Shown here one piece after another: positions 47,001 through 62,641 of a DNA stretch of 64,000 bases (positions are counted from its first letter, which is position 1; every line of letters begins with the position of its first letter). This DNA is from Zobellia alginiliquefaciens. Lineage in GTDB: Bacteria; Bacteroidota; Bacteroidia; Flavobacteriales; Flavobacteriaceae. The position numbers and the translations under genes are program-made. Under the pieces are notes generated by a model. The model saw nothing but the letters and a program-made list of their open reading frames with translations, was not told where the DNA came from and did not search any database. Location: assembly GCF_029323795.1 (NCBI RefSeq), contig NZ_CP119758.1:868001-932000 (forward strand), read 5' to 3'.

Positions 47001-50000
47001 TGTTCTTGTTTCGCTTACACAACCACTACTTATTGTTCTGCTTTCTGCATAGTAGGTTACGTTTCCAACCATATTCAATGTTGGGCTTCCTACTACACTA
47101 CCACCTGTAGCAGTAGTATACCAAACCACCGTTGCACCTGCCGGTGGAGTAGCCGTGGCGGTCATAGTTTGCGTAGGACTAGCTTCACATTCCGTTTGAT
47201 CGCCTCCACTTGTTGGAGCAACAGGAATAGGATCGATAGTTAGTGTTACTGCAGTTCTTGATAGCGAAGTACAAGACGTACTGTTATTTTGACTTTCAGC
47301 ATAATAGGTAACCGAACCAACTGAACTCCATTGCGGACTAGCCACAACATTACCCGCCGTAGGCGCATCATACCAAGTCAATGTAAAACCTGATGGTACC
47401 GTTGCTGTTGCCGTTAAAGTCTGAATGGGATTTTGCTCACATTCCGTTTGGTCGCCTCCACTGGTTGGTGGGGCCGGTGCAGGTTGAATAGTTAGTGAAA
47501 CCGCTGTTCGTGTTAAACTAGGACAACCTGTAATATCATCTTGACTTTCAGCATAATAAATTTCAGTACCCACCGAACTCCAATCTGGACTGGCGACTAC
47601 GTTACCTCCAGAGGCAGCATCATACCACACTACAGTTGATCCGGAAGGTGCCGTTGCCGTAGCCGTTAAAGTTTGAATAGGGTTTTCTTCGCATTCCGTT
47701 TGATCGCCTCCACTTGTTGGTGCTACGGGTGCAGGTTGAATCGTTAAGGTTACTGCAGTTCTGCCTACACTTGGACATCCGTTTACGGTATCATTACTTT
47801 CTGCATAATAGGTTATTGTTCCTACTGCGTTTAATGTGGGGCTTGCAACGACATTCCCGCCTGTGGCAGCATCATACCAAATGATACTTGCTCCAGATGG
47901 TGCTGTTGCCGTAGCGGTTAAGGTTTGTATCGGGTCTTCTTCACATTCCGTTTGATCGCCTCCACTCGTAGGAACAGGTGGCGCCGTGTTAACCGTTAAG
48001 ACCGCTTCGTTTGAAGTTGCGTCCGGACAGCTCGCAGCAGGACTCGTCCCGATTGCACGATACCTGTTGCCGCTCATAGCCAAGGTTACATTGGTTACGG
48101 TAAGCGTATTTGTTGTTACTCCACTATGTGGTGCCGTATTTGTTAGGTCATTCCAATTAGAGCCATCAAACAGTTGCCATTGAATAACACCTGACCCTGA
48201 CGCCGCTACATTAAAAGTAACAGTACCGCCTTCACAAATCGCTTCGTTCGTTGGTTGAGTGGTTATCGTAGGAGCATCATACACATTGATATTCAACCTT
48301 CTTCTTGGCCCTTCACAAGTAGCACTTCCATTTACTGTGGATTGTGTTACCCAAAAGGATTGTTGTCCTGCTGTTGACGTATCAGGAGTAGTCGTTCCTG
48401 GAATTTCATTTCCACCCGTTGCCGCATCATACCATCTTAAATTTGTTCCTGTTGCATGCGAATCTAATTGTGCGGAAGCATCACCGATACAATAATCAAC
48501 TGGTGAATTCACCGTGGGTGCCGTTGGTATGGCATAAACTATTACATCTATTTGTGTTCGTTCACTTTCACATGTGGTAGAATCATCTATTTGGCTCACG
48601 TAATACGAGGTTGTTCCTGCAGCTGCCGTACTTGGCGTAGGCGCCGAACCACTAGCGCTTCCTCCGGTTGCTACCGTGTACCATTGTAAGGTATGGCCGG
48701 AAAGGGCCGTTGCCACTAACGGTGTTGGTGTTTCCCCAACGCAATATTCTATTGGGCTGTCAGCCGTTGGTGGAGCAGGTCGTGGTATTTGGTAAAGGTC
48801 AATTGACAAAAAATCTTCACTGGTACACCCATTAGAATTTTGGGAATACACCGTGTAATTTCTAAAAAAATCAGCAGAAGCTGGTGCTGTGTAGGTCGTA
48901 ACACCACTCGCTACCAAATCTCCGTTCCCGTCATACCAATTAGCTGTTTCTCCGCCTGCAACATCTACGGTTACGGACATTTCAGGAGGTGTATCCCCTT
49001 CGCAATAAATGTATTCCGTTGAACCTGATGGTGGGTCTACATCATTCTCTACAGTAATATTAAAAGACCTTTCTGAAAAATTACCAGAAGCATCTCTTAC
49101 AGTATATCTAATAGTAGTAGTACCAATATCAAACTGATCACCGCTGTCAAGTCCGGTTCCATCTGTTCTAAAAATCACATAATCCGCTAATTCACAACTC
49201 GTATCATTAATATTCGTAACAACGGTTCCAGGAATCAACAAATTATCTAGATAAGCTTCCATACCTGTATTGAACAATGCGGAAGATGAATATCTTATCC
49301 TAATTTGATAATTTCCGATTAAGTTAAAAGGAATAATTTCTTGTTGAACCCCTGTTGTCGTGTAAGTCTTACTAAAATAATCAGTAGTAACCGTATTTCC
49401 ATCCTCATCCAATACATCTAAATGAATAGAAGGAGAGTTTGTGACTGCAGATATACTATGAGAAAAAGTAATTTCTCCAAAGCCATTGAAGTAAAAAACT
49501 GGCGTTGTCATTGAACTTGCAAAAAAGGTATTACTAGATATTCCAGTGGAAACTAGATTACGGGAACCATTTATTTGGCCGCCATTAGTAATGGATGAAC
49601 GAACAAACGTATAACACTGATTAATAGCCGCCTCAAAATCTTGAAGTACAGGAGCTTCCCCTTCTCCAGGAGGACAGTTATCCGAAGCTGTAGGTTCTGT
49701 CCATGTATGTGGGGCAGTACAGGTATTAGGATCTGCAGTTAAGGTTACATCAGTAGGAAAAGTATCAAAAACGGGACCTTGGTTATCATCTACAGTTACA
49801 TTAAAGGAGCAAGTAGCTATATTACCTCCGGCATCTTCCGCCCTATATATTACAGCAGTAGTTCCTGGCAGAAAAGAATCTCCAGGACTATAATTGCTCG
49901 TTACGCTTACCGCATCGGCAGAAGCAGTGGGAGGTGTCCACGTAACTACAGCGCTACATTCATCAGTTGTATAGGTTACGACAACATCAGAAGGCGGACA

Positions 50001-50177
50001 ATTAGAAAACGTTGGAGGTGCATCGACTGAAACTTCATTCGGAAAAAAAGCTTCGCCATTGTTAACGGGTGTTTTCTCTACAAATTCAATATTCGTAGAA
50101 AAACTAGATAAACTTGCCAGAAGCAAGATAACAAAGAACAATCTTGGTAGGTTTCGCATAGTTATGTAAAACTTCAT
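41007..50177 (-). CDS. Giant repetitive surface protein with T9SS type B (CHU_C-like) sorting domain
   Basis: 3056 aa from 50177; a second in-frame ATG at 50159 (MRNLPRLFFVILLLASLSS) gives an equally good signal peptide. Domains: HYR repeat (about 52-135); a second HYR (about 135-385) split by a jelly-roll-like insertion of about 150 residues; Ig-like modules (about 385-730); 14 copies of an about 80-residue module starting SGGDQTECE (about 730-2230), broken up by four different spacer modules; five DUF11 repeats (about 2290-2960) with acidic linkers DSTPNNDDGDQSEDDE; and the C-terminal sorting domain (FSPNGDGANDIFYI, YNRWGTMVF, LPVGTYYYTLELGDG). It is probably a secreted adhesin or gliding-related protein, exported through T9SS with the adjacent PorP/SprF. 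Confidence 0.9.
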   Translation of the reverse strand: MKFYITMRNLPRLFFVILLLASLSSFSTNIEFVEKTPVNNGEAFFPNEVSVDAPPTFSNCPPSDVVVTYTTDECSAVVTWTPPTASADAVSVTSNYSPGDSFLPGTTAVIYRAEDAGGNIATCSFNVTVDDNQGPVFDTFPTDVTLTADPNTCTAPHTWTEPTASDNCPPGEGEAPVLQDFEAAINQCYTFVRSSITNGGQINGSRNLVSTGISSNTFFASSMTTPVFYFNGFGEITFSHSISAVTNSPSIHLDVLDEDGNTVTTDYFSKTYTTTGVQQEIIPFNLIGNYQIRIRYSSSALFNTGMEAYLDNLLIPGTVVTNINDTSCELADYVIFRTDGTGLDSGDQFDIGTTTIRYTVRDASGNFSERSFNITVENDVDPPSGSTEYIYCEGDTPPEMSVTVDVAGGETANWYDGNGDLVASGVTTYTAPASADFFRNYTVYSQNSNGCTSEDFLSIDLYQIPRPAPPTADSPIEYCVGETPTPLVATALSGHTLQWYTVATGGSASGSAPTPSTAAAGTTSYYVSQIDDSTTCESERTQIDVIVYAIPTAPTVNSPVDYCIGDASAQLDSHATGTNLRWYDAATGGNEIPGTTTPDTSTAGQQSFWVTQSTVNGSATCEGPRRRLNINVYDAPTITTQPTNEAICEGGTVTFNVAASGSGVIQWQLFDGSNWNDLTNTAPHSGVTTNTLTVTNVTLAMSGNRYRAIGTSPAASCPDATSNEAVLTVNTAPPVPTSGGDQTECEEDPIQTLTATATAPSGASIIWYDAATGGNVVASPTLNAVGTITYYAESNDTVNGCPSVGRTAVTLTIQPAPVAPTSGGDQTECEENPIQTLTATATAPSGSTVVWYDAASGGNVVASPDWSSVGTEIYYAESQDDITGCPSLTRTAVSLTIQPAPAPPTSGGDQTECEQNPIQTLTATATVPSGFTLTWYDAPTAGNVVASPQWSSVGSVTYYAESQNNSTSCTSLSRTAVTLTIDPIPVAPTSGGDQTECEASPTQTMTATATPPAGATVVWYTTATGGSVVGSPTLNMVGNVTYYAESRTISSGCVSETRTAVTLTMHPNPTIAVTPSSQTCSADLSTYSVSVDVDRGTVTSTEGTVTDNGGNNWTISAIPSGNDITVTVTDANSCTDVISINAPNCACPTVNAPTSGGDQTECEQNPIQTLTATATAPAGASVVWYDAASSGNVVASPIWNMVGSTTYYAESVDDVNGCTSTTRTAVNLTIQAAPAAPSSGGDQTECEANPIQTLTATATSAPGTSVVWYDAATGGNVVASPTRNTVGTSTFYAESQDDGTSCVSHTRTAVVLTIEPNPAAPTSGGDQTECETNPIQTLTATATAPSGSSVVWYTAATGGTVVASPTLNTVGTVTYFAESENNSTSCVSTSRTAVVLTIQDTPTITESAGGASCSADLSTYSVSVDVSNGTVTSTEGTVTDNGGNNWTISNIPAGNDITVTTTAANSCSESITVTAPDCNCPVVDAPTSGGDQTECEQNPIQTLTATATPPANATVVWYDAPTGGTVVASPTLNTVGTVTYYAESVQNVTNCVSATRTAVILTINETPNAPISGGDQTECEATPIQTLTATATAPAGSSVVWYDAATGGNIIASPTLNSVGTVTYYAESSDNSTSCPSFTRTPVSLTIQDTPDITVATAASCAPDLLTYSVSVDVSEGTVTSTEGTVVDNGGNNWTISGITSGNDITLTVTAPNACIRTLDITAPDCSCPVVAAPTSGGDQTECEQNPIQTLTAMATSPADATVVWYDAPTGGNVIADPSLSTTGSATYYAESRDNVTNCVSSTRTAVVLTIDAAPSAPTSGGDQTECEQNPIQTLTATATAPAGSTVVWYDAPTGGNVVASPTRNTVGTITYYAQSENSTTSCTSLTRTAVSLTIQPAPAPPTSGGDQTECETSPIQTLTATATAPAGASVVWYDAATGGNVVASPTLNMVGSVTYFAESENNSTSCASFTRTPVSLTIQDTPDITVATAATCAPDLLTYSVSVDVSEGTVTSTEGTVVDNGGNNWTISGVTAGNNITLTVTAPNTCTQTLAVTAPDCSCPVVDAPTSGGDQTECEQNPIQTLTATATPPADATVVWYDAPTGGSVVADPSLSIVGTVIFYAESVENVTNCISSTRTAVSLSIEATPADPISGGDQVECDASPTQTLTATATAPAGSTIVWYNAPTGGTVVANPILDAVGNVTYYAESSDDTSACTSFNRTAVSLTIHPLPNVVANATTTTINAGEPVTLTGSGATSYMWDNGVTDGDTVYPLVTTTYTVIGTDGNTCENTDSVTITVNATSDIRIEKIVDDAAPNVGDTVIFTLTAYNDGPSDDSGGTVINDVLPAGYTYTVDTGGAGNGTYDAVSGDWTLPTLTNGNSVTIAISATVNAPTATPNEYYNIAQVTSATNFDSDSTPNNDDGDQSEDDEASAEVVPQVADLEVTNTISQPSGNPGDTVILTVTVQNNGPDDATNVSLENIVPVGFTVSTINDAGTQSGNTITWSGLTIPNGTTTTLTYEATVNNPTNVVDEYLNTVQVTTVDQYDPDSAPNNDDGDQSEDDEDAVSMRLQSSDLEIVNTVNPDSGNPGDTLTFSIEIINNSTDDATGIALENYVPSGFTVTTINDGGTQTGNTISWNGLTVPGGTSQTLTFEVTINVPTNTDGEYFNSVQITAVDQLDPDSSPNNDDGDQSEDDEDNAEIVLIPADLSLSKNLSAASNPTPNAGDTVTFEVTVTNNGPGIATNVSVEDILPIGYTLGTVNNGGVVSGNTITWSIATVAVGSQTLSYEVTLNAPTNAIGEYDNIAQITAMDQFDPDSTPNNDDGDQSEDDEVLHIINAPSVDLEISKMVDKSQTFHGDTVVFRVIVGNNDAYEATNIGIEDVLPSGYELVSHTADYGAYNETTSTWEIPSLPVDTEANLEMTVTVTDVDDYTNVAELIYVDQIDLNMDNDRAEATPEVTQSSCLTVYNEFSPNGDGANDIFYIECIEQYPDNVLTVYNRWGTMVFTTIGYDNTWDGRSLDRAKLDSSDQLPVGTYYYTLELGDGTTSPKSGWLYISR
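43500..47980 (-). repeat. Tandem coding repeats (14 Ig-like modules with spacers)
   Basis: Within the giant gene, units of roughly 240 bases repeat, each encoding SGGDQTECE, then IQTLTATAT, VVWYDA and VTYYAES blocks. The group sizes are 4, 3, 2, 3 and 2 copies, separated by four spacer modules of about 85 residues (each with TYSVSVDV and TEGTVTDNGGNNWTIS). Unit similarity at DNA level is high enough to make copy-number change by recombination likely. Confidence 0.85.
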
Positions 50178-50467: not shown

Positions 50468-51184
50468 CTAGTTTTGAGTGTCACTCCACTTTTCATAGCG
50501 TACTTTTTGCTCTTCGCTCGTTAATGGATACAAGCCCACTATAGATGTTCCGTTTTGAACCTCTTGCATCACATAATCTTCAAAACGTGTCATTTTTAGG
50601 CATTCATCCGCAACTTGATCCGCTATGTTTGCCGGTATGACCATAATTCCATCATCATCCCCTACAATATAATCGTCTGGAAATACGGCCACATCTCCGC
50701 AACCAATAGGTTCATTAATAGCAATGGCTTGGTGCAAAGTTAAATTGGTAGGTGCCGTAGGCCTATTGTGATAGGACGCAAAACTGAGGTCTGCAATTTC
50801 GGCAGAATCACGAAATCCACCGTCCGTAACTATACCTTCTACCCCACGCACCATTAAACGAGTTGCCAAAATAGAACCCGCAGAGGCAGCACGAGCATCT
50901 TTTCTACTATCTATGACCATAACATAGCCCGCAGGACATTCTTCTACCGCCACACGCTGCAAATGCTTGGGATCCCTAAACACCTCAATGGGATTTAAAT
51001 CTTCCCTAGCTGGAATATAACGTAACGTATATGCCTTACCTACCATAGTGGGTTTACCTTTCTTAAGAGGTTGGACGCCTTGAATAAATTGATTCCGGAG
51101 GCCTTTTTTAAATAGACAAGTGGCAATAGTTGCCGTGCTTACCATTCTTAATTTTTCCGTAGTGGTTTTTTCTTCTGTTGTCAT
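50468..51184 (-). CDS. RraA-like family protein (possible pyruvate-type aldolase)
   Basis: 238 aa, cytoplasmic. RraA/HMG-aldolase fold signatures are visible: GKAYTLRYIPARED, GYVMVIDSRKDARAASAGSILA, a GIVTDGGFRDSAEI motif with the conserved R-D pair, and DYIVGDDDGIMVIP near the end. The family includes RNase E inhibitor-like proteins, HMG/CHA aldolases that release pyruvate, and many of unknown activity; sequence alone cannot choose. It is 19 bases downstream of the TIM-barrel gene, so it shares its transcript. Its place in a uronate regulon favours a role in 2-keto sugar breakdown (inference). Confidence 0.75.
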   Translation of the reverse strand: MTTEEKTTTEKLRMVSTATIATCLFKKGLRNQFIQGVQPLKKGKPTMVGKAYTLRYIPAREDLNPIEVFRDPKHLQRVAVEECPAGYVMVIDSRKDARAASAGSILATRLMVRGVEGIVTDGGFRDSAEIADLSFASYHNRPTAPTNLTLHQAIAINEPIGCGDVAVFPDDYIVGDDDGIMVIPANIADQVADECLKMTRFEDYVMQEVQNGTSIVGLYPLTSEEQKVRYEKWSDTQN

Positions 51185-51203: not shown

Positions 51204-52172
51204 TTATTCCGCTTTGCTCCAGGTATCCCTTAAAAAGACCAAGTCCTTTTTCATTTTAGCGTAAACTTCTTCCCTATTTATGGTAATCTCTGAAGCACCA
51301 TGCTCGGCACCTCCAAGATCATATTCTAAATGTAGCGATACCGGTACGTTTATTTTATACTTCTTAAGTAATGAAAAGTAGCGGGTAAAATTTACCATCC
51401 CCTCACCTAAAGGCGTATTGATAGGTTGCCACTTGCCTTCTTTCATTCCCCATTTAAAATCTTTTATTATAATGGACCTTATATAAGGGGCAATAAGCCG
51501 TAAATCCAATTCCCAACTCAAACCACCTTCGGCTACGGCATGGCGTATATCATATTGGCAACCCATATATTTGCTTTCCGAAGATGGTAATATGGGTGGC
51601 ATATCCCAAATAGGAGCACCAACATGGTTGCCTGCATGATTTTGATAGCAACCAACTAAATCCAGGTTTTCATTTACTGATTCGAGGTCACTAAAAAGTT
51701 TCCTATAGATTTTCTGACTCGCTTCTATGTTACGGTCCTCCGGGTAACTCAACCACCCAGTTCTATAGTGTGAGACTCCTAAACCACTGGCCGTTTCAAG
51801 TAGTTGCCTGTCGGTTACGTTCTTCCCATCAAGTACATTTGTGGTTATCATAGTAGACTTTAGTCCATGCTTTTTCATCGCAACTACGGCTTTAGGTAAG
51901 TCACGAGCCACATTTTCCGGTAGCACGTGCCCTTTTGGTCTTACGGTTAAATCCAAGCCGTCAAAACCAATTTCAGAAGCCACTTTGGCCATTTCATCAT
52001 AATCTAAAAATTGTAAATGCTTAGAGAATAAATGAACCTGAAGCCCTTTATTTAAAGGTTTGTACTTTAAATTAAAAGGATTTGCCAGGGGCATCAAAGG
52101 AACAGCCAAGGCTACGGAACTGGATTTCTTAATAAAATTTCTTCGATTCAAATAAGTTTTGTTTTTAGCCAT
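51204..52172 (-). CDS. Xylose-isomerase-like TIM-barrel sugar isomerase/epimerase with Tat signal
   Basis: 322 aa. A twin-arginine signal NRRNFIKKSSSVALAVPLMPLA lies at residues 8-29, so it is probably exported folded to the periplasm. The AP-endonuclease-2/xylose-isomerase-like barrel shows QVHLFSKHLQFL, IGFDGLDLTVRP, LVGCYQNHAGNHVG, QYDIRHAVAEGG, IIIKDFKWG and SLHLEYDLGG, with metal-ligand E, D and H positions in the last half. Many such proteins act on keto sugars or sugar acids. It diverges from the gluconokinase-like gene across a shared double operator. Confidence 0.8.
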   Translation of the reverse strand: MAKNKTYLNRRNFIKKSSSVALAVPLMPLANPFNLKYKPLNKGLQVHLFSKHLQFLDYDEMAKVASEIGFDGLDLTVRPKGHVLPENVARDLPKAVVAMKKHGLKSTMITTNVLDGKNVTDRQLLETASGLGVSHYRTGWLSYPEDRNIEASQKIYRKLFSDLESVNENLDLVGCYQNHAGNHVGAPIWDMPPILPSSESKYMGCQYDIRHAVAEGGLSWELDLRLIAPYIRSIIIKDFKWGMKEGKWQPINTPLGEGMVNFTRYFSLLKKYKINVPVSLHLEYDLGGAEHGASEITINREEVYAKMKKDLVFLRDTWSKAE

Positions 52173-52210: not shown

Positions 52211-52262
52211 TTTGATAATGATCAAATATAACTATATTTGGTAAACCAATTTGGTAAACCAA
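52211..52262. promoter_or_regulatory. Divergent promoters with double TTGGTAAACCAA operator (site 1)
   Basis: Plus strand: TTTG (52211-52214), an 18-base gap, then TATATTTG (52233-52240) as -7 box, overlapping the first TTGGTAAACCAA (52238-52249); a second copy is at 52251-52262. Minus strand: TATATTTG (52223-52230) can serve the TIM-barrel gene, with the operators in its -33 region. A bound repressor should block both directions. The palindrome resembles UxuR/ExuR (GntR/FadR-type) hexuronate operators. Confidence 0.7.
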
Positions 52263-52273
52263 TTATTTAACAG

Positions 52274-52774
52274 ATGTATAAAAAAGAGAATTTTGTAATA
52301 GTTTTAGTGGGTGTTTGCGGTACAGGCAAGAGTATTGTGGGCGATAAAGTTGCTAGGAAACTAGATATTCCATTTTTTGATGCCGATGCTCTCTTCAACG
52401 AGCAACTTGCCTCGGATAAAAAAAATAGGACTGACGATTCCAGTACATGGTTATCAGCTATTACAAATTTAATTCAAGAGGAGTTTACCAAAAAAGGTTG
52501 TGTGGTATCCTGTTCAATTTTAAAGAAAGAACAGCGTTTACAACTTGCTGAAAATCTTGATTTAAATATTGACTGGGTATTTATGCGCGGTACCTATGAA
52601 AAAGTAAACGAACGTTTGGAAAAAGAACATGAACCGCACCAAACCTTATCTTCGCTGCAGTCTGACTTTGAGTCGCTAGAAATTCCTAAAAGGGCCCTTA
52701 CCGTAGATATTACAAATACCGACCAAGAAATAGTAGATACCATTTTAAAGTATTTAGCACGAAAGTATGGTTGA
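52274..52774 (+). CDS. Gluconokinase-like (GntK-type) carbohydrate kinase
   Basis: 166 aa, a usual size for GntK-type kinases. The P-loop is GVCGTGKS (residues 13-20), followed by FFDADALF, the substrate-side D motif, the VVSCSILKKEQR block matching VSCSALKxxYR, and WVFMRGTYEKVNERL. The LQSDFESLEIP segment matches the LxSQFxxLExP stretch of gluconokinases. Only about 34 bases lie between the -7 box and its ATG. In an alginate regulon it may phosphorylate 2-keto-3-deoxygluconate or a related sugar acid; the usual KDG kinase is a PfkB-type enzyme, so this is open. Confidence 0.75.
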   Translation: MYKKENFVIVLVGVCGTGKSIVGDKVARKLDIPFFDADALFNEQLASDKKNRTDDSSTWLSAITNLIQEEFTKKGCVVSCSILKKEQRLQLAENLDLNIDWVFMRGTYEKVNERLEKEHEPHQTLSSLQSDFESLEIPKRALTVDITNTDQEIVDTILKYLARKYG

Positions 52775-52818
52775 AGCTTTCTCCACTCTGTAGAAATCAG
52801 GATTATAATGCTCTATAA

Positions 52819-52871
52819 TTTGCACAATAGAAAAATATCTCTATTTTTGGTAAACCAAATTGGTTAACCAA
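52819..52871 (+). promoter_or_regulatory. Promoter of the PL17 gene with double operator (site 2)
   Basis: TTTG at 52819-52822 and TATTTTTG at 52842-52849 have exactly 19 bases between them. TTGGTAAACCAA (52847-52858) overlaps the -7 box, and the perfect palindrome TTGGTTAACCAA follows at 52860-52871. The transcript would have a leader of about 250 bases before the lyase start, with no gene recognised in it. Confidence 0.7.
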
Positions 52872-53116
52872 TTTAATCAAATGCAATAAATAAAAGTAAT
52901 ATTTACAATAATAGGACCATTAGCATTTAAATGGTCGCTGGTGACCCATTGAGAAATTCAAACGTAGGTCTTTAAAAAATTAGCGGTAATCAGCGACCAT
53001 AATTTTAAATTTAACTGAATTGAAGCTCCTACAAGTATTAAGATTACTTCAATGCTTAACTATCTATATCCGCTGAGAGTTAACCAAAAATAAGATTACG
53101 CCCAATATAACAAGAC

Positions 53117-55375
53117 ATGAGAATAGCCAAACATACAGCCATAATACCAGTATTAATCTGCCTTTTGTTGGTTATCTTTAATGCATACCCACAAGAACAC
53201 CCTAATTTAATTTTAACCAAAGAAGGGGTACAAAAAATAAGGGCGGAATTAGGCACTGTTCCTCTTTTTGATGCTACGCTAGAACAGGTAAAATCTGAGG
53301 TAGATGCAGAAATAGAGCTCGGTATCAAAACTCCTGTGCCCAAAGATTATTCCGGTGGTTATACACACGAACGCCACAAACGTAACTTTTTAATTCTTCA
53401 GAAAGCAGGTGTACTCTACCAGATTCTAGATGATGAAAAGTATGCCGTATACATTAAGGACATGTTGTTCCAATATGAAGGCATGTACAAAGATTTACCA
53501 GTACACCCACAAACAAGGTCGTATGCCAGAGGTAAGCTGTTTTGGCAATGCTTAAATGATTCCAATTGGCTGGTGTATGTTAGCCAGGCTTATGATTGCG
53601 TATATAATTATTTAACAAAAAAAGAACGCAAACAACTTGAAAAAAACCTATTTAGACCTTTTGCAGATTACATATCAATAGAAAATCCTCAGTTCTATAA
53701 TCGTGTTCACAACCATAGTACATGGGGCAATGCAGCTGTAGGTATGATCGGACTTGTTATGGGCGATGATGAATTGATACACCGAGCGCTCTTCGGGATA
53801 GAAGACGATGGGTTACCTATTGGCGCAAAAGACAATGATGGTGGTTTCATTAAAGTAGAAGGACAGGAAGTAGGGTTTCTTGCCAATGTAAACGAACCAT
53901 TTTCTCCCGAAGGATACTATACGGAAGGCCCCTATTACCAAAGATATGCCATGTATCCCTTCTTAATATTTGCCGAAGCGCTGCATAATGTAAAGCCAGA
54001 TGTAAAGATTTTTGAATACAAGGATAGTGTTTTGCTGAAATCGGTTGATGTGCTTATTAACCTTTCTGATGCCGATGGCGAATTTTTCCCCCTTAACGAT
54101 GCCCAAAAAGGCATGTCCTACAAGTCTAGGGAAGTAGTAACCGCTGTTGATATTGCTTATCACTATGGAGGTCACAACCCTCAATTATTAAGTATTGCAG
54201 AAGAACAAGATCAAGTGTTGTTAGATGATTCCGGGCTAGCTGTAGCGTTGGGCATAAGAGATGGAAAAGCAAAAACGTTCCAGAAAAAATCAATCAACCT
54301 AACCGATGGTGCCAATGGTGATGAAGGCGGCGTTGGCATATTACGATATGGCGATGAGGACATGACCTTGGTCTACAAATATGCCGCACAAGGCCTAAGT
54401 CATGGCCACTATGATAAACTTTCTTTTTCACTTTACGAAAATGGGTCAGAAATATTACAGGATTACGGACTCGCCCGTTTTGTAAATATTGAACAAAAAG
54501 GAGGTGGCAACTACCTTAAAGAAAACACCACTTGGGCCAAACAGACTATTGCGCATAATACTTTGGTTCAAAATGAAACCTCGCATTTTGGCGGGAAATA
54601 TGAAGTGGGCAGCAAACACCACTCGGAGCTATACTTTTTTGATGCATCCAATCCTGAAGTACAAGTAGTAAGCGCCAAAGAGACCAATGCCTATCCCGGA
54701 ACGGAAATGCAAAGAACCATGGCCATCATAAAAGCCGATGGATTTGAAAAACCCTTTTTACTGGATATCTTAAAAGTAGAATCAAAAACAGAGAATAAAT
54801 ACGATCTCCCCTTTTACTTTAACGGTCAAATAATGCAGACCAATTTTGACTTTACGACACCTAAAACCTTAGAACCCTTAGGTTCCGATAATGGCTACCA
54901 ACACCTTTGGACGGAAGGAATTGGTCAACCTAAAGAAAATAACTCCAAACTTAGCTGGCTAGAAAAAGGGCATTATTATACACTTACCACTACAAGCTCA
55001 AAAAATGATGAGCTCCGTTTTGTACGGATTGGCGCCAATGACCCTGAATTTAATTTAAGGAGAGATGCCGGTCTTGTCATCCGCAGAAAAAACACACAAA
55101 ACACAACCTTCGTTTCCGTGATAGAATCTCATGGAAATTATAGTCCAGTATCGGAATTCTCCGTTAATTCAAATAGTGCAATTTCGAAAATAGAAATTAT
55201 GTTAGATACCAAAGAGTACACATCAATACTGATAGAAACAAAATCCAATGGTGAGCAACTAATGTTATTAGTATCTAACAAAGATAAGGGCGCTGATAAA
55301 GAGCATATTTTAAAGATAAAGGAAATTGTATACCGTTGGACCGGTCCTTTTCAATTTGTTACTATCAAGAAGTAA
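53117..55375 (+). CDS. PL17 family oligoalginate lyase (heparinase II/III-like)
   Basis: 752 aa with a signal peptide (IIPVLICLLLVIFNAYPQ). An alpha/alpha-toroid at about 30-370 has HNHSTWGNAAVG (N199, H200) and YYTEGPYYQRYAMYPF (Y273/Y274). The C-terminal heparinase II/III beta-sandwich at about 395-740 has GLSHGHYDKLSF (H429, H431) and KQTIAHNTLVQNE. These fit the catalytic Tyr/His and Asn positions of PL17 exolytic alginate lyases. It releases unsaturated monouronate from alginate oligomers, probably in the periplasm. It is followed by a convergent KdgF-like gene whose product would process the released sugar. Confidence 0.92.
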   Translation: MRIAKHTAIIPVLICLLLVIFNAYPQEHPNLILTKEGVQKIRAELGTVPLFDATLEQVKSEVDAEIELGIKTPVPKDYSGGYTHERHKRNFLILQKAGVLYQILDDEKYAVYIKDMLFQYEGMYKDLPVHPQTRSYARGKLFWQCLNDSNWLVYVSQAYDCVYNYLTKKERKQLEKNLFRPFADYISIENPQFYNRVHNHSTWGNAAVGMIGLVMGDDELIHRALFGIEDDGLPIGAKDNDGGFIKVEGQEVGFLANVNEPFSPEGYYTEGPYYQRYAMYPFLIFAEALHNVKPDVKIFEYKDSVLLKSVDVLINLSDADGEFFPLNDAQKGMSYKSREVVTAVDIAYHYGGHNPQLLSIAEEQDQVLLDDSGLAVALGIRDGKAKTFQKKSINLTDGANGDEGGVGILRYGDEDMTLVYKYAAQGLSHGHYDKLSFSLYENGSEILQDYGLARFVNIEQKGGGNYLKENTTWAKQTIAHNTLVQNETSHFGGKYEVGSKHHSELYFFDASNPEVQVVSAKETNAYPGTEMQRTMAIIKADGFEKPFLLDILKVESKTENKYDLPFYFNGQIMQTNFDFTTPKTLEPLGSDNGYQHLWTEGIGQPKENNSKLSWLEKGHYYTLTTTSSKNDELRFVRIGANDPEFNLRRDAGLVIRRKNTQNTTFVSVIESHGNYSPVSEFSVNSNSAISKIEIMLDTKEYTSILIETKSNGEQLMLLVSNKDKGADKEHILKIKEIVYRWTGPFQFVTIKK

Positions 55376-55527
55376 CAAGAATATAAGTTCTTAGGGAAAG
55401 ATATGTATGAGAAACCATAAGATTTAACTAAGGTTTGAGGGTGTCTTCTATACTATTCAGCACCAAAGATGAACTAATTAGGGTTAACCTATACTACTTT
55501 TAAAATCCTATTTATTAATTTGAATTG

Positions 55528-55588
55528 ATTCTATAATTTGATTTTTAGACCTTATTCCAATAAGAGAATGAAAACCAAATTATAGAAT
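55528..55588. repeat. 13-base perfect inverted repeat with nested hairpin
   Basis: ATTCTATAATTTG (55528-55540) and CAAATTATAGAAT (55576-55588) are perfect inverse copies. Inside the loop, CTTATT (55551-55556) and AATAAG (55559-55564) form a second stem. It lies between convergent PL17 and KdgF-like genes, so it could be a bidirectional terminator, although no T-run adjoins it. Confidence 0.5.
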
Positions 55589-55663
55589 TTCTAGTTCTCC
55601 CTTCAAATAGTTTTTTGTAAAAAAGAGAATTCGTTATTTAAACTGAAGAGGTATTTTTTGATA

Positions 55664-56038
55664 CTACTTTTTGTCTCCAAAATAAGAGACCCCATCGCCA
55701 CTTAAAAAATCTTCTCTTACAGGGCTAAATGTATCGATCAACATTCCTTCTTCTAAACAAACTGCACTGTGTAACAAATTAGGTTCAATGTACACTCCGT
55801 CTCCCGCTTCTACAATTTTCTTTTCGCCATTAATTTCAAATTCAAATTTACCAGAAACACAGTAGGTAGCTTGTGTATGAAAATGTTGATGTGGCGCCCC
55901 TAATGCTCCTTTATCAAATTTCACTTTCACCATCATAATTTGGTTATCGTAACCCAAGAATTTCCTTGAAACTCCTCCTCCAAGTTCTTCCCAATCCATT
56001 TCTTTTGTGATGATGTATTTTTCACTAAATCGTTTCAT
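55664..56038 (-). CDS. kdgF: KdgF-like cupin (unsaturated monouronate linearisation)
   Basis: 124 aa, a single cupin, as expected for KdgF. Metal-binding positions are H50, H52 and Q56 (PHQHFHTQATY) and H90 (PNLLHSA), with the usual GDGVYIEP turn between. KdgF-type proteins speed conversion of 4,5-unsaturated uronates, released by alginate or pectin lyases, to the open-chain keto form. Placement beside PL17 supports this. There is no signal peptide. It is on the opposite strand to PL17, and no TTGGTAAACCAA site was found upstream, so it may have separate control. Confidence 0.8.
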   Translation of the reverse strand: MKRFSEKYIITKEMDWEELGGGVSRKFLGYDNQIMMVKVKFDKGALGAPHQHFHTQATYCVSGKFEFEINGEKKIVEAGDGVYIEPNLLHSAVCLEEGMLIDTFSPVREDFLSGDGVSYFGDKK

Positions 56039-56893
56039 TTTTTTATATGATTTTTTATGATACTAATTACCTAAGCAAGATAATTTATTTCGGATAATTA
56101 AAGAAGAAAAAGCTAGGAATTATAGGGGTTAAATCCATATATTTTTTCGTTTTTTAATTCTGAATGTCAATACTTTACATATATTTATATAATAAGCGGG
56201 AAATAGAAAATAAATATCCATAATTCAGCATTTAAAAACGGTTTTTTTGTGATTATATCATCTTAAAATCACCTTCTGTATTCCTATTAAAATCTTCTAA
56301 GTACCACTACTTTTTACCCAAAAGTAGCTGCCAAAAAATCCCCAATTGAAGACTTGTTACACGAAAAATTTAATCCAGAAATTAAAATTGCGATTGCATA
56401 GGTAAAATTTAACATTATAAAACAGCCTTTTGACATGGATTCTTTAGTCGAAAAAGCCCATTTGGTATGCAAAATCACACCTCCAAGGTATGATAAACCA
56501 ACTACCTTTAACGATAGTCATTACATTCACATTTACTACTTTTTCTATTGGAATCACACTCTAAACAGTCTGTACATAGAATGCTATTTTTCTATGGGTA
56601 TTTTTGGAGAACATTTCACATCAAAAGAGCTCAGAAGTCGTTTACTTTATGGGCTCTGCCCAAAATCAAAAGGCCGGTAAGTTCTCATTTACAAGGACTA
56701 AAAAGTGAGCTATATAAAATTGCATTTATCTGTTTAATTAATAAATTCTCACCTAAAAAGCATTTAATAACCCTCATTGGCAACAGCCCTGTTTTATTGC
56801 CAATTAGATAAATTAACATCTTACAAAATACTAGATACTCAAAATACCATTGTAATTTTTCTAATATTATTTTTTTTTAACAAAGTATTAAGT
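56039..56893. other. Long AT-rich intergenic region before the SusC operon
   Basis: About 850 bases with no supported gene. Frames of 81 and 87 codons at 56435-56680 and 56548-56811 overlap in different frames and lack family features. A short peptide-like stretch (KSPIEDLLHEKFNPEIKIAIA) can be read near 56325-56400 but has no start; it may be a decayed gene end. The region could hold an unseen small RNA. Confidence 0.4.
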
Positions 56894-56936
56894 TATATTT
56901 GGTAAACCAAATTGGTTAACCAGTATGGGAAACCAA
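56894..56936 (+). promoter_or_regulatory. Promoter of the alginate SusC operon with triple operator (site 3)
   Basis: TATATTTG (56894-56901) is the -7 box and overlaps TTGGTAAACCAA (56899-56910). Two more sites follow: TTGGTTAACCAG (56912-56923) and a weaker ATGGGAAACCAA (56925-56936). The -33 is not a clear TTTG; a T-run lies at the right distance. The leader to the SusC ATG is about 340 bases. Confidence 0.65.
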
Positions 56937-57240
56937 TTAAAAGATAGAACAACTAGCGAGTATTAATTAAAGAAATACCTAATGAAAGTATAAAGTACAC
57001 AGAAAAAAAAAAGGACGGGCGCACACCCATACTTATAATTCAAATTACTTCATTCTGAAGGGAAGTAATACTAAGAACACGTACAACTTACTATACAAGC
57101 TCATTACAAAAACACAAAATTCAGAGACGTTAATGAGCTACGTGCTTTAGTAAGTTGATGATCAAATGAGATTCGCAAACCTTCTCATTGAGGTGTCGGG
57201 CCTTAAACCGATGAACATTACTAACTTAACATTAACACAA

Positions 57241-60200
57241 ATGAATTTAAAAGCTAAACTAACGCTTATAGCATTATTGTGCTTCAATTTATCGCTATTC
57301 GCACAAGACAACTACTCGCTGTCAGGTACAGTTTCCGATGAGGACAATGTTCCAATACCAGGAGTAAACGTCATTATTAAAAACACCACAACAGGTACAT
57401 CTACAGATTTTGACGGAGTATTCCAAATAGAGGTTTCAGAAGGCGATCTTCTTCAATTTTCTTACATCGGCTATGTAACCCAGACCATTGCTATAACCGG
57501 TCAGGAAGAAGTATCGATTACCATGACAGAAGACGCCAGCCAACTAGAGGAAGTTGTTGTTGTAGGTTATGGTACTCAGAAAAAATCAACGCTTACCGGT
57601 TCAATATCTAAAGTTACCAACGAAACTCTAGATCAAATTGCAGTTTCAAGGGTAGATGATGCTCTTGTAGGGCAAGTGTCCGGTGTTAACATTCAAGCCA
57701 CCAATGCAGAAGCCGGTGGCGCACCTACTATTACTATTAGAGGTATTGGATCGGTAACAGCAGACTCAGGACCTGCGCTAGTGGTTGACGGGATAATTGT
57801 AAGTTCAGAATTCCTTGGAAACCTTGATATGAACGATGTTGAATCTTTTGAAATATTGAAAGATGCCGCATCTGCCGCTATTTATGGTAGTGAAGGTTCT
57901 AACGGGGTTATTTTAATTACAACTAAGAGCGGTAAGGCCGGGAAAACAAAATTTAGTTATCAGACCTACACCGGTTACAAAAACGCTCACAAAAGTGATG
58001 ACTACTCAAAAAGTGTTTCCGATTGGGCAGCAAAAGAATTGGCTGCAACCGGTACGCTTTCCAATGAAACACAATATGCACAACTCTTAGTTAGCACTAC
58101 AGGTGTTGATAGAGACTGGCAGGATGTTTTCTTTGATGGAGGAACGGTAACAAGTCATTCCCTATCCGCAAGAGGTGGCTCAGAGGATACGCAATTTAGT
58201 GCCTCTTTAAGGTACTTAAGTGATGAAGGTGTGGTTATAACAGATGACTATAAGTTATATACGGCCAGTTTAAAGGTTAACTCTAAAATAGGAGAAAAAC
58301 TAAAATTTGGACTTAGTGCTACACCGTCCTTTACAAAACAAAGACGTTTACCAACATCCATACACAACCCTATACGCCAGTCGCCTTGGTTGCCAATATA
58401 TCATACAGAAGAATCTCTTCAGTTTATTGACCGTAGCGCTTATCCAGACGTTGGAGTTGGAGATTACTTCTATGAAAATCACTTATTAAACTTAGATATT
58501 AATGGTGATGGAAGTACAAGCAGACCTCGTACTTCAGGAGATTCAAACCCGTACGCACAATATGTTGAAAGAGAACATTATGAGTACAACACCAAACTTT
58601 TTGGATCAACGTATTTAAGTTATGAAATTGCAGACGGTCTAACCGCCAGAACTTCATTAGGTGTAACTCTTGAGCAACGAAAGAGAACAAGATATGATGG
58701 TACCATGTATCATGCAAGTGGTAACAGTAATGCCGCTTACTATTTAGCAAATAGGTTTAGAAGTAGGTTGATTTCCGATAACACCTTAAACTACTCTAAA
58801 ACTTTTAATGACAAACATGATCTAAATCTACTTTTAGGTATGACCGCACAAAGAAGGGTATCGGAAGAAAGTATTACTACAGGTAGCGGATTTTCCAATG
58901 ACCTGTTGAAAAACTTCCAAGGTGCTACCCTAGTCGATATACCTACTGAAACCAATACAGAGTTAAAAAAGTTGGGTTATTTTGCTAGAGTAAACTATGC
59001 TTACCAAGGAAAATATTTATTCAATGCCTCTTTTAGACGTGACGGGAGCTCGGTTTTTGGAATCGACTCCAAATGGGGTAATTTCCCAGCAGCATCTATA
59101 GGTTGGAACGTTTCGAAAGAAAATTTCCTAGCGAACAGCAATGCTATAAACAATTTAAAATTCAGAGCTAGTTTTGGTCTTACCGGTGCAGAGAATTTTA
59201 ATGTGGGTGATGATGTTGTAAATTCATGGCCATATTTAGCGTTATTACAAAACTCCAACGCGGTTGATAACGGTAATGTAAATGCAGGTGTTTCACCACG
59301 GAACATTGCCAATGCTTTATTACAATGGGAAGCATCAGAAGAATTCTCTGTTGGATTGGATTACGGGTTTTTCACCAATAGAATTTCAGGTTCTTTGGAT
59401 TACTACAGAAGAACTAGTGATGAACTCTTATTAAACAACCCTGTATCTTACCTTACCGGTTTTAACAATGGTATAGTAAACTTAGGTAAAGTTCAAAATA
59501 GTGGATGGGAACTAGAGGTAAGAACCAAAAATATTGTTGGGGAGAAATTCTCTTGGAATTCAACTTTTATCGCCTCTACTAACAAAAATGAACTACTCGC
59601 TTTTGGAGATTCCAACAATGCATTAATTGAAGATGACTATGGTAGAAACTCTCAATGGATCAACAGAATAGGAGAACCTATATCTTCCTTCTGGGGTTAT
59701 GTTGTTGATGAAGAAGCTTTTGATGAAACTTCCTTTAGAACAACGTATGTAGATAGCCCTTGGAACAGAATTAATGGTCAATCAGATGATACTATTGTGA
59801 AAGATCTAAATGGCGATGGGCTAATTACAGAAGAGGATAAAACTATACTTGGAGATCCATATCCAGATTTGAACTATAGCTTTACAAATGAATTTAAAAT
59901 AGGAGATTTTGACTTCTCTCTTATGGTTCAAGGAAGCGTGGGTGGCCAGGTAAATAATATTGGTGACCAATATTTCTATAACTGGTTTGGTAACAGAACC
60001 AGAAGTGGTGGTGAAGCAGAAGCAGTTGCAAACGGTTTAGTACCCCATGAATCTTTTATTCAAGAAAAAGTATTGACCAGTGAGGTCATTGCAAGCTCAG
60101 ATTACTTTTCATTAAGAAACGTAAACGTTGGTTATAATTTCCCTGCAGATGTAACTACAAGATTAGGTTTAGAAGGTCTAAGACTTTACGCCACCGCTCA

Positions 60201-60345
60201 AAATCTAATTTACTTAACTGCAGATGATTACCATGGCTTCAACCCAGAACATGTTGATGGTAGTAACCCAAGAGCATATGGCTCGCAAAGAGCAGGAACA
60301 CCAATATTTAAGACGGTTACTTTTGGTCTAAACCTTGACTTTTAA
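57241..60345 (+). CDS. SusC/RagA-family TonB-dependent transporter of the alginate locus
   Basis: 1034 aa from the ATG at 57241, which begins a good signal peptide (MNLKAKLTLIALLCFNLSLFAQ); in-frame starts at 57166 and 57211 add only a non-signal extension. A carboxypeptidase-like domain (LSGTVSDEDNVPIPGVNVII), the SusC signature EVVVVGYGTQKKSTLTGSI, a plug (GIGSVTADSGPALVVDGIIV, LKDAASAAIYGSEGSNGVILI) and a barrel ending TVTFGLNLDF follow. It should import alginate oligosaccharides with SusD. The SusD start is 16 bases downstream of its stop. Regulated by the triple operator upstream (inference). Confidence 0.93.
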   Translation: MNLKAKLTLIALLCFNLSLFAQDNYSLSGTVSDEDNVPIPGVNVIIKNTTTGTSTDFDGVFQIEVSEGDLLQFSYIGYVTQTIAITGQEEVSITMTEDASQLEEVVVVGYGTQKKSTLTGSISKVTNETLDQIAVSRVDDALVGQVSGVNIQATNAEAGGAPTITIRGIGSVTADSGPALVVDGIIVSSEFLGNLDMNDVESFEILKDAASAAIYGSEGSNGVILITTKSGKAGKTKFSYQTYTGYKNAHKSDDYSKSVSDWAAKELAATGTLSNETQYAQLLVSTTGVDRDWQDVFFDGGTVTSHSLSARGGSEDTQFSASLRYLSDEGVVITDDYKLYTASLKVNSKIGEKLKFGLSATPSFTKQRRLPTSIHNPIRQSPWLPIYHTEESLQFIDRSAYPDVGVGDYFYENHLLNLDINGDGSTSRPRTSGDSNPYAQYVEREHYEYNTKLFGSTYLSYEIADGLTARTSLGVTLEQRKRTRYDGTMYHASGNSNAAYYLANRFRSRLISDNTLNYSKTFNDKHDLNLLLGMTAQRRVSEESITTGSGFSNDLLKNFQGATLVDIPTETNTELKKLGYFARVNYAYQGKYLFNASFRRDGSSVFGIDSKWGNFPAASIGWNVSKENFLANSNAINNLKFRASFGLTGAENFNVGDDVVNSWPYLALLQNSNAVDNGNVNAGVSPRNIANALLQWEASEEFSVGLDYGFFTNRISGSLDYYRRTSDELLLNNPVSYLTGFNNGIVNLGKVQNSGWELEVRTKNIVGEKFSWNSTFIASTNKNELLAFGDSNNALIEDDYGRNSQWINRIGEPISSFWGYVVDEEAFDETSFRTTYVDSPWNRINGQSDDTIVKDLNGDGLITEEDKTILGDPYPDLNYSFTNEFKIGDFDFSLMVQGSVGGQVNNIGDQYFYNWFGNRTRSGGEAEAVANGLVPHESFIQEKVLTSEVIASSDYFSLRNVNVGYNFPADVTTRLGLEGLRLYATAQNLIYLTADDYHGFNPEHVDGSNPRAYGSQRAGTPIFKTVTFGLNLDF

Positions 60346-60361
60346 TCTAAAAAAACAAAAA

Positions 60362-61807
60362 ATGAAACATATAAAATATTTAATTTTTGTCATAACAGTG
60401 TCCGTTTTTGTTTCTTGTGATACGGATGAATACTTAAACCCTCTGCCAGACACGGCAGTTGCAGTAGATGCTTTTTTCCAAACTGATTCAGATGTATTAG
60501 CTGGGGTGATAGGTATTTACGATGCCCTTCAGGGAGTAAATGAAAATACGACCAGTAATATTGGTGATGTTAACAGAGGCGTGCAATTTGAACACCTTTT
60601 AACCGAGCATAGAACCGATAATACCAGAAATGCTACGCTAGAAGGTTCAAAAGCCGACTTTCACAGGTATACCGTTAATGCAAACAATGTGGAGTCCGAA
60701 GATTATTACGCCTCTATGTACGAAGTTATTTTTAGAGCTAATAACATCCTGAACTTTATTGACATAGCAGATGCGAGTAACCAAGCAAAATATACAGCAG
60801 AAGCTAAATTTTTAAGAGCATATGCCTACTTTAAACTGGTTAGAATGTATAGTGATGTACCCTTAATTACTAGAGTTGTAGGTCCTACGGAAAATGAAGC
60901 TCTTTTTACGAGAACCCCGGTATCAGAGGTTTACACTCAAATTGTGGCAGACTTACAAGAAGCAGCAAGTGTATTGGACAACTCTTCCAAATCAAGAGCA
61001 TCTAGAGCTGCGGCACAGGGTATTCTGGCCAAGGTATACTTAACACAGCCAAATCCAAACTACACAGGTGCTCAACAGATGTGTGAAGCAGTCATTAATA
61101 GTGGAAACTTTAGTTTACAAAGCAACTATTCTGATGTTTTCTATTCCGAATTAAATGATGAAATTATTTTTGCTGTACAATATGTAACTGGTAATAGCCT
61201 TGAAAGTCAAAGTTTTTCTTCTGAATTTACTTCAGGAGGTAGACGTCAAGGTCAAGAAGATGGTCAGAATATTGTAAACGATAATCTTATAGAAGCATTT
61301 GAAGAAGCTGGAGGTAACAGAACCGAAGTTTCTTATTTTACATTTCCCGATGCAACAGAAGTTACAAAGTTCTTGCCTGAAGGATCTGACGTTACCGCTA
61401 CACCTCCAACCTATGGCGGAAGTTCTCGAGATGCGGGTAACGACTATATCGCCCTGCGTTACGCAGATGTACTATTGATGCATGTTGAAGCTATTATGGC
61501 CGGTGGTGAATCCACCAACAACGCTGCCGCCTTAAACTCTTTTCAAAAAGTAAGGGATAGAGCGGGCTTAACAGCTACTGTAAGCAATATTACCAAAGAC
61601 GAACTTCTACTCGAAAGAAGGGTAGAATTGGCCTTCGAAAACCAAAGATGGTTTGATTTGTTAAGGTTTGGTGTTGCCGATGCCGTTTTAAGTGCACATG
61701 CCACCGAGCTAGGTTACGCATTTGATGCCAGAAAATTGTTATTACCTATTCCGGCAAGAGAAATAAATATTAGTGGTGGCCTTTTGACCCAAAATCCAGG
61801 ATATTAA
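60362..61807 (+). CDS. SusD/RagB-family lipoprotein of the alginate locus
   Basis: 481 aa from the ATG at 60362; an in-frame TTG at 60335 overlaps SusC and precedes the signal. The lipoprotein signal ends VFVSC (C19) followed by DTDEY, fitting surface export. The SusD core is seen in AEAKFLRAYAYFKLVRMYSDVPLI, AAAQGILAKVYL, DYIALRYADVLLMHVEAIM, FQKVRDRAGL, ELLLERRVELAFENQRWFDLLRFG and a final LLTQNPGY. It caps the SusC transporter and binds alginate oligomers (inference from context). Confidence 0.92.
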   Translation: MKHIKYLIFVITVSVFVSCDTDEYLNPLPDTAVAVDAFFQTDSDVLAGVIGIYDALQGVNENTTSNIGDVNRGVQFEHLLTEHRTDNTRNATLEGSKADFHRYTVNANNVESEDYYASMYEVIFRANNILNFIDIADASNQAKYTAEAKFLRAYAYFKLVRMYSDVPLITRVVGPTENEALFTRTPVSEVYTQIVADLQEAASVLDNSSKSRASRAAAQGILAKVYLTQPNPNYTGAQQMCEAVINSGNFSLQSNYSDVFYSELNDEIIFAVQYVTGNSLESQSFSSEFTSGGRRQGQEDGQNIVNDNLIEAFEEAGGNRTEVSYFTFPDATEVTKFLPEGSDVTATPPTYGGSSRDAGNDYIALRYADVLLMHVEAIMAGGESTNNAAALNSFQKVRDRAGLTATVSNITKDELLLERRVELAFENQRWFDLLRFGVADAVLSAHATELGYAFDARKLLLPIPAREINISGGLLTQNPGY

Positions 61808-61825
61808 TACTCAAATACTTAAACA

Positions 61826-62641
61826 ATGTATAAAGAAAATATTTTCAAAAAAATAAAATTATTGCTCTTAGGTATAGTTACAACGGGTTCATTCATTAGT
61901 TGTGATGACAGTCTTTTTAGAGATGATTTACCAGATGCTAATTCCAAGGTAGACACCGTATTTCCAGAAGCTAATTTTGATTATACAGCAGACCAAGAAA
62001 ATTTTAAGGTCATAAATTTCACCGACCTTTCTAGTGAAGCATCAACCTATGCTTGGGATTTTGGAGGAGGAGCTACTTCCACAGAACAAGATCCTACCCA
62101 TACCTTTGATGGGGAAGGAGTATACCCTGTTACTTTTACAGCCAGTGATGGAAACAATGAATCTTCGTCAATTACCATAGATGTAGTTGTAGAAGATAAA
62201 CTAGTATCAGCTTTTGAATGTGCAGATTTTAATTGTGATCCAAGAACTCCTTGGGGAGGAGGACGTGGTACAAGTACATATTCAGGAAGTTCTTCACCAA
62301 CACCTCCAGAAGGAAACGGTGGTGCTAAGATTAGTAGCTCTTCACAATTTCTTGATCAAACCATATTAGTGCTTCCAGGCAGAACATATGAGATCACTTT
62401 TTGGTACGTAAGTAAGTCTAGTGGTACATCTGCAGGAACATTGCTAATTGAAGATGCAGACAATCCTGATGAGCCTGCATTCCTAAATCAGGAAATTCCA
62501 TTATCCTCAACTGCTAGCTCCTATGAGCCCATATCATTCCGGGTTGAAACAGGAGATGCAACGGAAAACATGAGATTTAATATTGAATATGCTGGCACTG
62601 AATCTAGGTTTTCTAAAATCAGCATAGAGCAGATTGAATAA
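61826..62641 (+). CDS. PKD-domain surface glycan-binding lipoprotein
   Basis: 271 aa. A lipoprotein signal ends GSFISC (C26) followed by DDSLFRDD. A PKD domain at about 47-120 has STYAWDFGGGATSTEQDPTHTF and GVYPVTFTASDG. After it comes a beta-sandwich module at about 130-271 (ILVLPGRTYEITFWYVSKSSG, YEPISFRVETGD), likely a carbohydrate-binding fold. It follows SusD by 18 bases and is a probable surface alginate-binding protein. A hairpin follows before the next lipoprotein gene. Confidence 0.8.
   Translation: MYKENIFKKIKLLLLGIVTTGSFISCDDSLFRDDLPDANSKVDTVFPEANFDYTADQENFKVINFTDLSSEASTYAWDFGGGATSTEQDPTHTFDGEGVYPVTFTASDGNNESSSITIDVVVEDKLVSAFECADFNCDPRTPWGGGRGTSTYSGSSSPTPPEGNGGAKISSSSQFLDQTILVLPGRTYEITFWYVSKSSGTSAGTLLIEDADNPDEPAFLNQEIPLSSTASSYEPISFRVETGDATENMRFNIEYAGTESRFSKISIEQIE

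Follow-up and report, generated by a model that had tools for sequence, protein, structure and literature searches.

The window analysed here, a 64-kb stretch of the Zobellia alginiliquefaciens genome, contains an alginate utilization locus like those of Zobellia (passages of PMC8073546, section 7), the genes and control elements of which are listed in Table 1. A gluconokinase-like gene lies divergent from genes for a TIM-barrel and an RraA/aldolase-like protein and is followed by genes for a PL17-like lyase, a cupin protein, a SusC/SusD pair and a PKD-domain protein. Past the window end the locus continues with two PL7 genes, a PL6-type gene and genes encoding an MFS transporter, an SDR, a PfkB kinase and a LacI-family protein. 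The names gluconokinase, oligoalginate lyase, mannose-6-phosphate isomerase and KDG kinase are used for proteins that score below the curated NCBIfam cut-offs (678 bits against the olalg_lyase cut-off of 1400 for the PL17-like protein). On the other side, positions 41007-50177 encode a highly repetitive, probably secreted protein of 3056 amino acids, whose C-terminal end we take to resemble a type IX secretion signal.

Table 1. Genes, operators and promoter boxes of the alginate locus and regulon. Positions are window coordinates unless marked C1.
Feature	Position	Strand	Remarks
RraA/aldolase-like protein	50468..51184	-	PF03737
Xylose-isomerase-like TIM-barrel protein	51204..52172	-	PF01261
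Candidate divergent -7 box TATATTTG (TIM-barrel/RraA-like genes)	52223..52230	-	From sequence; seen in 8 Zobellia genomes
-7 box TATATTTG, gluconokinase-like promoter	52233..52240	+	TTG common with operator 1; upstream TTG at 52212, 18 nt off
Operator pair 1	52238..52262		Two exact copies, 13-bp step; ahead of gluconokinase-like gene, between divergent genes
Gluconokinase/shikimate-kinase-like P-loop kinase	52274..52774	+	Over Pfam SKI cut-off; under NCBIfam gluconokinase cut-offs
-7 box TATTTTTG, PL17 promoter	52842..52849	+	Upstream TTG at 52820, 19 nt off
Operator pair 2	52847..52871		Both copies exact; ahead of PL17
PL17-like oligoalginate lyase	53117..55375	+	Pfam Hepar_II_III_C and Alginate_lyase over cut-off
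Small cupin protein, KdgF-like	55664..56038	-	Profile search; name inferred from context
-7 box TATATTTG, susC promoter	56894..56901	+	40 upstream bases without TTG
Operator triple	56899..56936		Exact, one mismatch, two mismatches; ahead of susC
SusC-like TonB-dependent transporter	57166..60345	+	Profile search
SusD-like lipoprotein	60335..61807	+	Profile search
PKD-domain protein with carbohydrate-binding domain	61826..62641	+	Profile search
GntR/FCD regulator (ausR), copy 1	C1:934418-935164		PF00392 and PF07729 over Pfam cut-off
NRAMP1	C1:937638-938912 (L027:5638-6912)		Over Pfam Nramp cut-off
GntR/FCD regulator (ausR), copy 2	C1:939803-940531		PF00392 and PF07729 over Pfam cut-off
NRAMP2	C1:1650835-1652097 (L028:5836-7098)		Over Pfam Nramp cut-off; own operator array, -7 box on both edges

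Seven palindromes lie in tandem groups of two, two and three at 52.24, 52.85 and 56.90 kb, as the first-pass annotation had described. Five copies read exactly TTGGTWAACCAA (52238-52249, 52251-52262, 52847-52858, 52860-52871 and 56899-56910), the copy at 56912-56923 has one mismatch, and that at 56925-56936, which reads ATGGGAAACCAA, has two. The register within all three groups is exactly 13 bp per copy. The accompanying claim that the first copy overlaps a promoter element also stood, and at all three promoters a TAnnTTTG -7 box shares its TTTG with the first palindrome. The sigma-A promoter consensus of Bacteroidetes is TTTG at -33 and TAnnTTTG at -7 (passages of PMC6847099 and PMC9723704), and probable sigma-A promoters of F. 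johnsoniae have 4-5 nt between the -7 box and the start (PMC6847099, in part). By the F. johnsoniae rule, transcription would start near 52245, 52854 and 56906, and the window arrays are predicted to extend from the -7 box over the start into the leader.

The candidate divergent box beside operator pair 1 has its nearest upstream TTG within that pair, with a spacer of 16 nt compared to the usual 19. Eight of the nine Zobellia genomes, all but G398, were compared by eye, and all eight retain this box ahead of the gluconokinase-like gene; the divergent gene encodes a TIM-barrel protein in six of those eight and a KDG-kinase-like protein in two (L177 and L181). On these grounds, operator pair 1 may control two divergent promoters.

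The first-pass annotation had held that random occurrence of the motif across the genome would speak against a regulon, and for single copies the occurrence is indeed at chance level. Allowing two mismatches, 29 single motifs were seen in the window against 23.6 expected, and 18 of 100 shuffles reached 29. In the 5.07-Mb genome, single TTGGTWAACCAA with up to one mismatch gave 79 and 67 matches on the two strands and the reversed control 98 on each. Counts of single copies, no commoner than the reversed control, were therefore dropped as evidence. The 13-bp tandem form, on the other hand, is enriched, with 8 forward and 7 reverse matches at up to one mismatch (reversed control 0 and 0) and 13 on each strand at up to three (control 2 and 3). 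Exact single copies number 14 across the genome, counting each once, and 11 of them fall within tandem arrays. The other three, at genome positions 3036142 and 3296953 (both within ORFs) and at 4248889 (part of a more extended inverted repeat between genes), we discounted as terminator-like or chance occurrences.

Non-degenerate arrays start at seven places in the genome: the three of the window (C1 920238, 920847 and 924899, equal to window positions 52238, 52847 and 56899) and, in the genome search that the earlier reading had proposed, four more promoters of the same form at C1 939214, 1650794, 4704672 and 4707321. In all seven the -7 box lies at the edge that points upstream of the gene, and the array at C1 1650794 has one at both edges. 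A further array, at C1 2569879, has one mismatch and no -7 box and lies by a PL7 (Alginate_lyase2) gene. Degenerate arrays with two and three mismatches stand directly before both genes of the regulator described below (C1 934392 and 939760), the array at C1 934392, before the first copy, having no -7 box. Within the window the arrays head the gluconokinase-like gene, the PL17-like lyase gene and the SusC/SusD genes with the PKD-domain protein gene. Beyond it they head two genes for Pfam Chondroitinas_B lyases, which we take to be PL6, the second regulator copy and the PL7 gene, and another array heads an NRAMP-like transporter gene followed by a mannose-6-phosphate-isomerase-like gene. These results support the earlier suggestion that shared operators join PL17, SusCD and metabolic genes into one uronate-polysaccharide regulon. 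At one PL6-type lyase (C1:4702339-4704696, L033) the start given by the ORF caller overlaps the operator pair; the real start is probably an ATG a few bases past the array.

The first-pass annotation had also proposed looking for a GntR/FadR-type gene nearby. Two such genes were found inside the same alginate locus as the window arrays, at distances of 2.4 and 7.8 kb beyond the end of the window. Both encode the FadR-type architecture of an N-terminal GntR winged helix and a C-terminal FCD domain. The two copies are 86% identical, and proteins from five Zobellia records match the second copy at 87-92% identity. Six of nine Zobellia genomes have two ausR copies and three have one. Many FCD domains carry a metal site made up of an Asp and three His; D151, H155, H200 and H222 are invariant in 78 of 78 aligned AusR sequences (76 of the 77 loci described below, which gave sequence, and the two own copies), and from this motif we equate them with the FCD metal site. 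Duplication of AusR in the Zobellia alginate locus has been noted previously (PMC8073546, section 7, in part).

The regulator class originally put forward was that of the proteobacterial hexuronate repressors UxuR and ExuR, which as owners of the operators would sense galacturonate or glucuronate and not alginate products. These proteins belong to the same superfamily (GntR with FCD domain), and the operator that the first-pass annotation gave for them, TTGGTATACCAA, would resemble the present palindrome in its half-site TTGGT/ACCAA; the letters of TTGGTATACCAA were not found among the literature matches listed. The NCBIfam scan, which took in the second AusR copy, gave scores far under the cut-offs of both models, 63.3 bits for Uxu (cut-off 442) and 61.7 bits for ExuR (cut-off 396). 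LldR (120.6 bits), NanR (98.3) and PdhR (94.8) scored above these, still below their own cut-offs. What the arrays head, moreover, are PL17, PL7, PL6 and SusCD genes from a locus for alginate use, and an orthologue from the same genus is reported as an alginate repressor (passages of PMC7874173 and PMC8073546). We consider a hexuronate repressor of this type very improbable here; the class assignment was not upheld and the protein corresponds to AusR instead. AusR, a GntR/FadR-type repressor, is very probably the binder of the palindromes.

The triple array in the stretch C1:939214-939800 (L027:7214-7800), before the second ausR copy, resembles a susC promoter. In two other Zobellia loci (L044 and L046) some 4.6 kb of DNA that includes a SusC-like match separates the two halves of the stretch, and on this ground we propose that a second susCD pair has probably been lost here, leaving its promoter before the second ausR.

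To relate operators to regulator, one set of 397 family genomes was screened both for tandem arrays (up to one mismatch) and for AusR (E 1e-70 or better). Arrays occur in 101 genomes and AusR in 100, with both in 99, arrays only in two, AusR only in one and neither in 295; the reversed control pattern matches nine of the 397 (counted by eye). Relatives share descent, so that the Fisher value for the association overstates independence; at genus level, arrays are found in 75 and AusR in 73 of 237 genera. Two of the three mismatching genomes were resolved on renewed search, one (G094) having a 48%-identical AusR homologue just after its array and another (G025) having TGGTCAACCA-type arrays 8-13 kb away from the AusR gene. 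The third (G154) has one array, and no AusR homologue was found in it at E 1e-20.

Another regulator of the locus could in principle bind the palindromes, for example the LacI-family protein encoded at C1:942878-943912. A LacI gene was found in 29 of 77 AusR loci (25 above 150 bits; short loci may miss some), compared with arrays in 68 of the 77, and the arrays track AusR across genomes. We give next to no credence to such a binder.

These 77 named loci, up to about 20.7 kb long, were retrieved via the regulator alone. They hold 102 arrays, and in nine loci no array was found at the threshold used. Copies less than 60 bp apart are separated by 13 bp in 142 cases and by 26 bp, the ends of triples, in 40, with spacings of 11, 18 and 33 bp once each. 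Read along the direction of the AusR gene, the -7 box lies at the upstream edge of 92 arrays, at the opposite edge of one and at neither edge of ten. The operator is palindromic, so the opposite edge serves as an internal control. Of 15631 TTGG sites elsewhere in the AusR loci, 469 have TAnnT directly before them. In 61% of the 92 contexts the box is preceded by a TTG at a distance of 17-20 nt (shuffled mean 5.7%, largest 13%). SusC is the nearest matched gene behind 68 of 97 plus-strand boxed arrays, our own genome included. The arrays, their register, their overlap with the -7 box, their conservation and their co-occurrence with AusR can be read from the DNA itself. The gluconokinase-like gene was found in one of the 77 loci; it has its own array in the eight Zobellia genomes compared, of nine, and the PfkB sugar kinase gene is found in the locus besides it.

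We think it highly likely that the palindromes are operators at which AusR would cover the -7 box and the start of transcription until alginate breakdown products release it. For binding, occlusion, effector and derepression we infer this by following AusR of Zobellia galactanivorans. One AusR dimer would occupy each 12-bp palindrome, two or three sites being adjacent at the fixed 13-bp step. A step of this length corresponds to roughly one and a quarter turns of the helix and would therefore place neighbouring dimers on turned faces of the DNA. The TTTG of the sigma-A box at -7 falls within the first site, and the remaining sites extend over the predicted start and on into the leader. The sigma factor and an AusR dimer at the first site would compete for common bases, in keeping with repression by occlusion. 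Once bound, AusR would exclude RNA polymerase from the promoters of the gluconokinase-like gene, PL17 and susCD, as the first-pass annotation expected of a bound protein. At the promoter of the gluconokinase-like gene it may in addition overlie the -33 region that belongs to the divergent TIM-barrel/RraA promoter. Alginate breakdown products would then be taken up by the FCD domain, AusR would leave its sites, and the gene set would be switched on. It is reported that AusR no longer binds when intermediates of alginate degradation are present (among passages of PMC7874173, PMC8286568 and PMC9296495).

AusR might instead activate transcription at these sites, or form a roadblock for polymerase that is already elongating, without its task being to hide the -7 box. 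The predicted start is followed downstream by the second and third copies, and the degenerate arrays right before both ausR coding regions have a first site without a -7 box. Against this, the TTTG of the box is within the first site in 92 of 102 arrays, a position suiting occlusion, and AusR is reported as a repressor (PMC7874173, in part). Action of either kind seems improbable to us, and we retain occlusion by AusR as the proposed mechanism.

The functions of the two NRAMP-like regulon members are less clear. Both proteins exceed the cut-off of the NCBIfam Nramp_1 model, named divalent metal transporter, which counts for metal transport. When NRAMP1 was aligned to a solved transporter, however, the DPGN motif of TM1 was found changed to GTGS and the MPH motif of TM6 to MAS; NRAMP2 has, by eye, GTGS at TM1 and VFS at TM6. 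These changed metal motifs count against metal transport. A tentative reading, which we regard as possible and rather unlikely, is that these transporters were recruited to carry an organic alginate product (for instance an unsaturated uronate or keto-deoxy sugar acid), and not metal, over the inner membrane. If this is true, AusR operators expose regulon members outside the classical alginate genes. NRAMP1-like genes above 150 bits occur in 13 of the 77 AusR loci. One of the literature matches listed has a supplementary legend naming an Nramp gene in the alginolytic systems of Alteromonas sp. 76-1, and the main text of PMC5613140 contains none of the terms gluconokinase, shikimate, Nramp, GntR, palindrom- or AusR.

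The fusion of promoter and operator, TATATTTGGTAAACCAA followed by more copies at 13-bp steps, has so constant a form and so tight a link to AusR that the DNA sequence is enough to propose alginate regulons in marine Flavobacteriaceae, even for members remote from the main locus. The published AusR model thereby becomes testable across genera. The arrays also offer a clean example of a repressor site that uses bases of the unusual Bacteroidetes -7 box. The primary study of the AusR regulon, in Zobellia galactanivorans DsijT, is reportedly that of Dudek et al. 2020 (NAR 48:7786); this paper lay outside our literature search, in which the operator letters matched only unrelated papers.

The boxes described here match the consensus of Bacteroidetes sigma-A promoters, and at arrays of the AusR loci the upstream TTG peaks at 19 nt. 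They differ from such promoters in that the TTTG doubles as operator bases. UxuR and ExuR of proteobacteria have the same GntR/FCD architecture; their models' cut-offs are missed, and the genes concerned are alginate genes here and hexuronate genes there. The closest likeness is to the AusR regulon described in Zobellia galactanivorans (passages of PMC7874173, PMC8286568 and PMC9296495, and of PMC8073546, section 7), and it is well supported that the present case is a further instance, in another Zobellia genome, of the AusR system described in that sister species and not a new kind. In both, a GntR-family repressor is encoded within the alginate locus, and its reported or, here, proposed targets are lyase, SusCD and uronate genes. 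The operators of Z. galactanivorans occur in one to three tandem copies, and here pairs and triples are found at the promoters of alginate genes. The present genome differs in that its regulator is duplicated.
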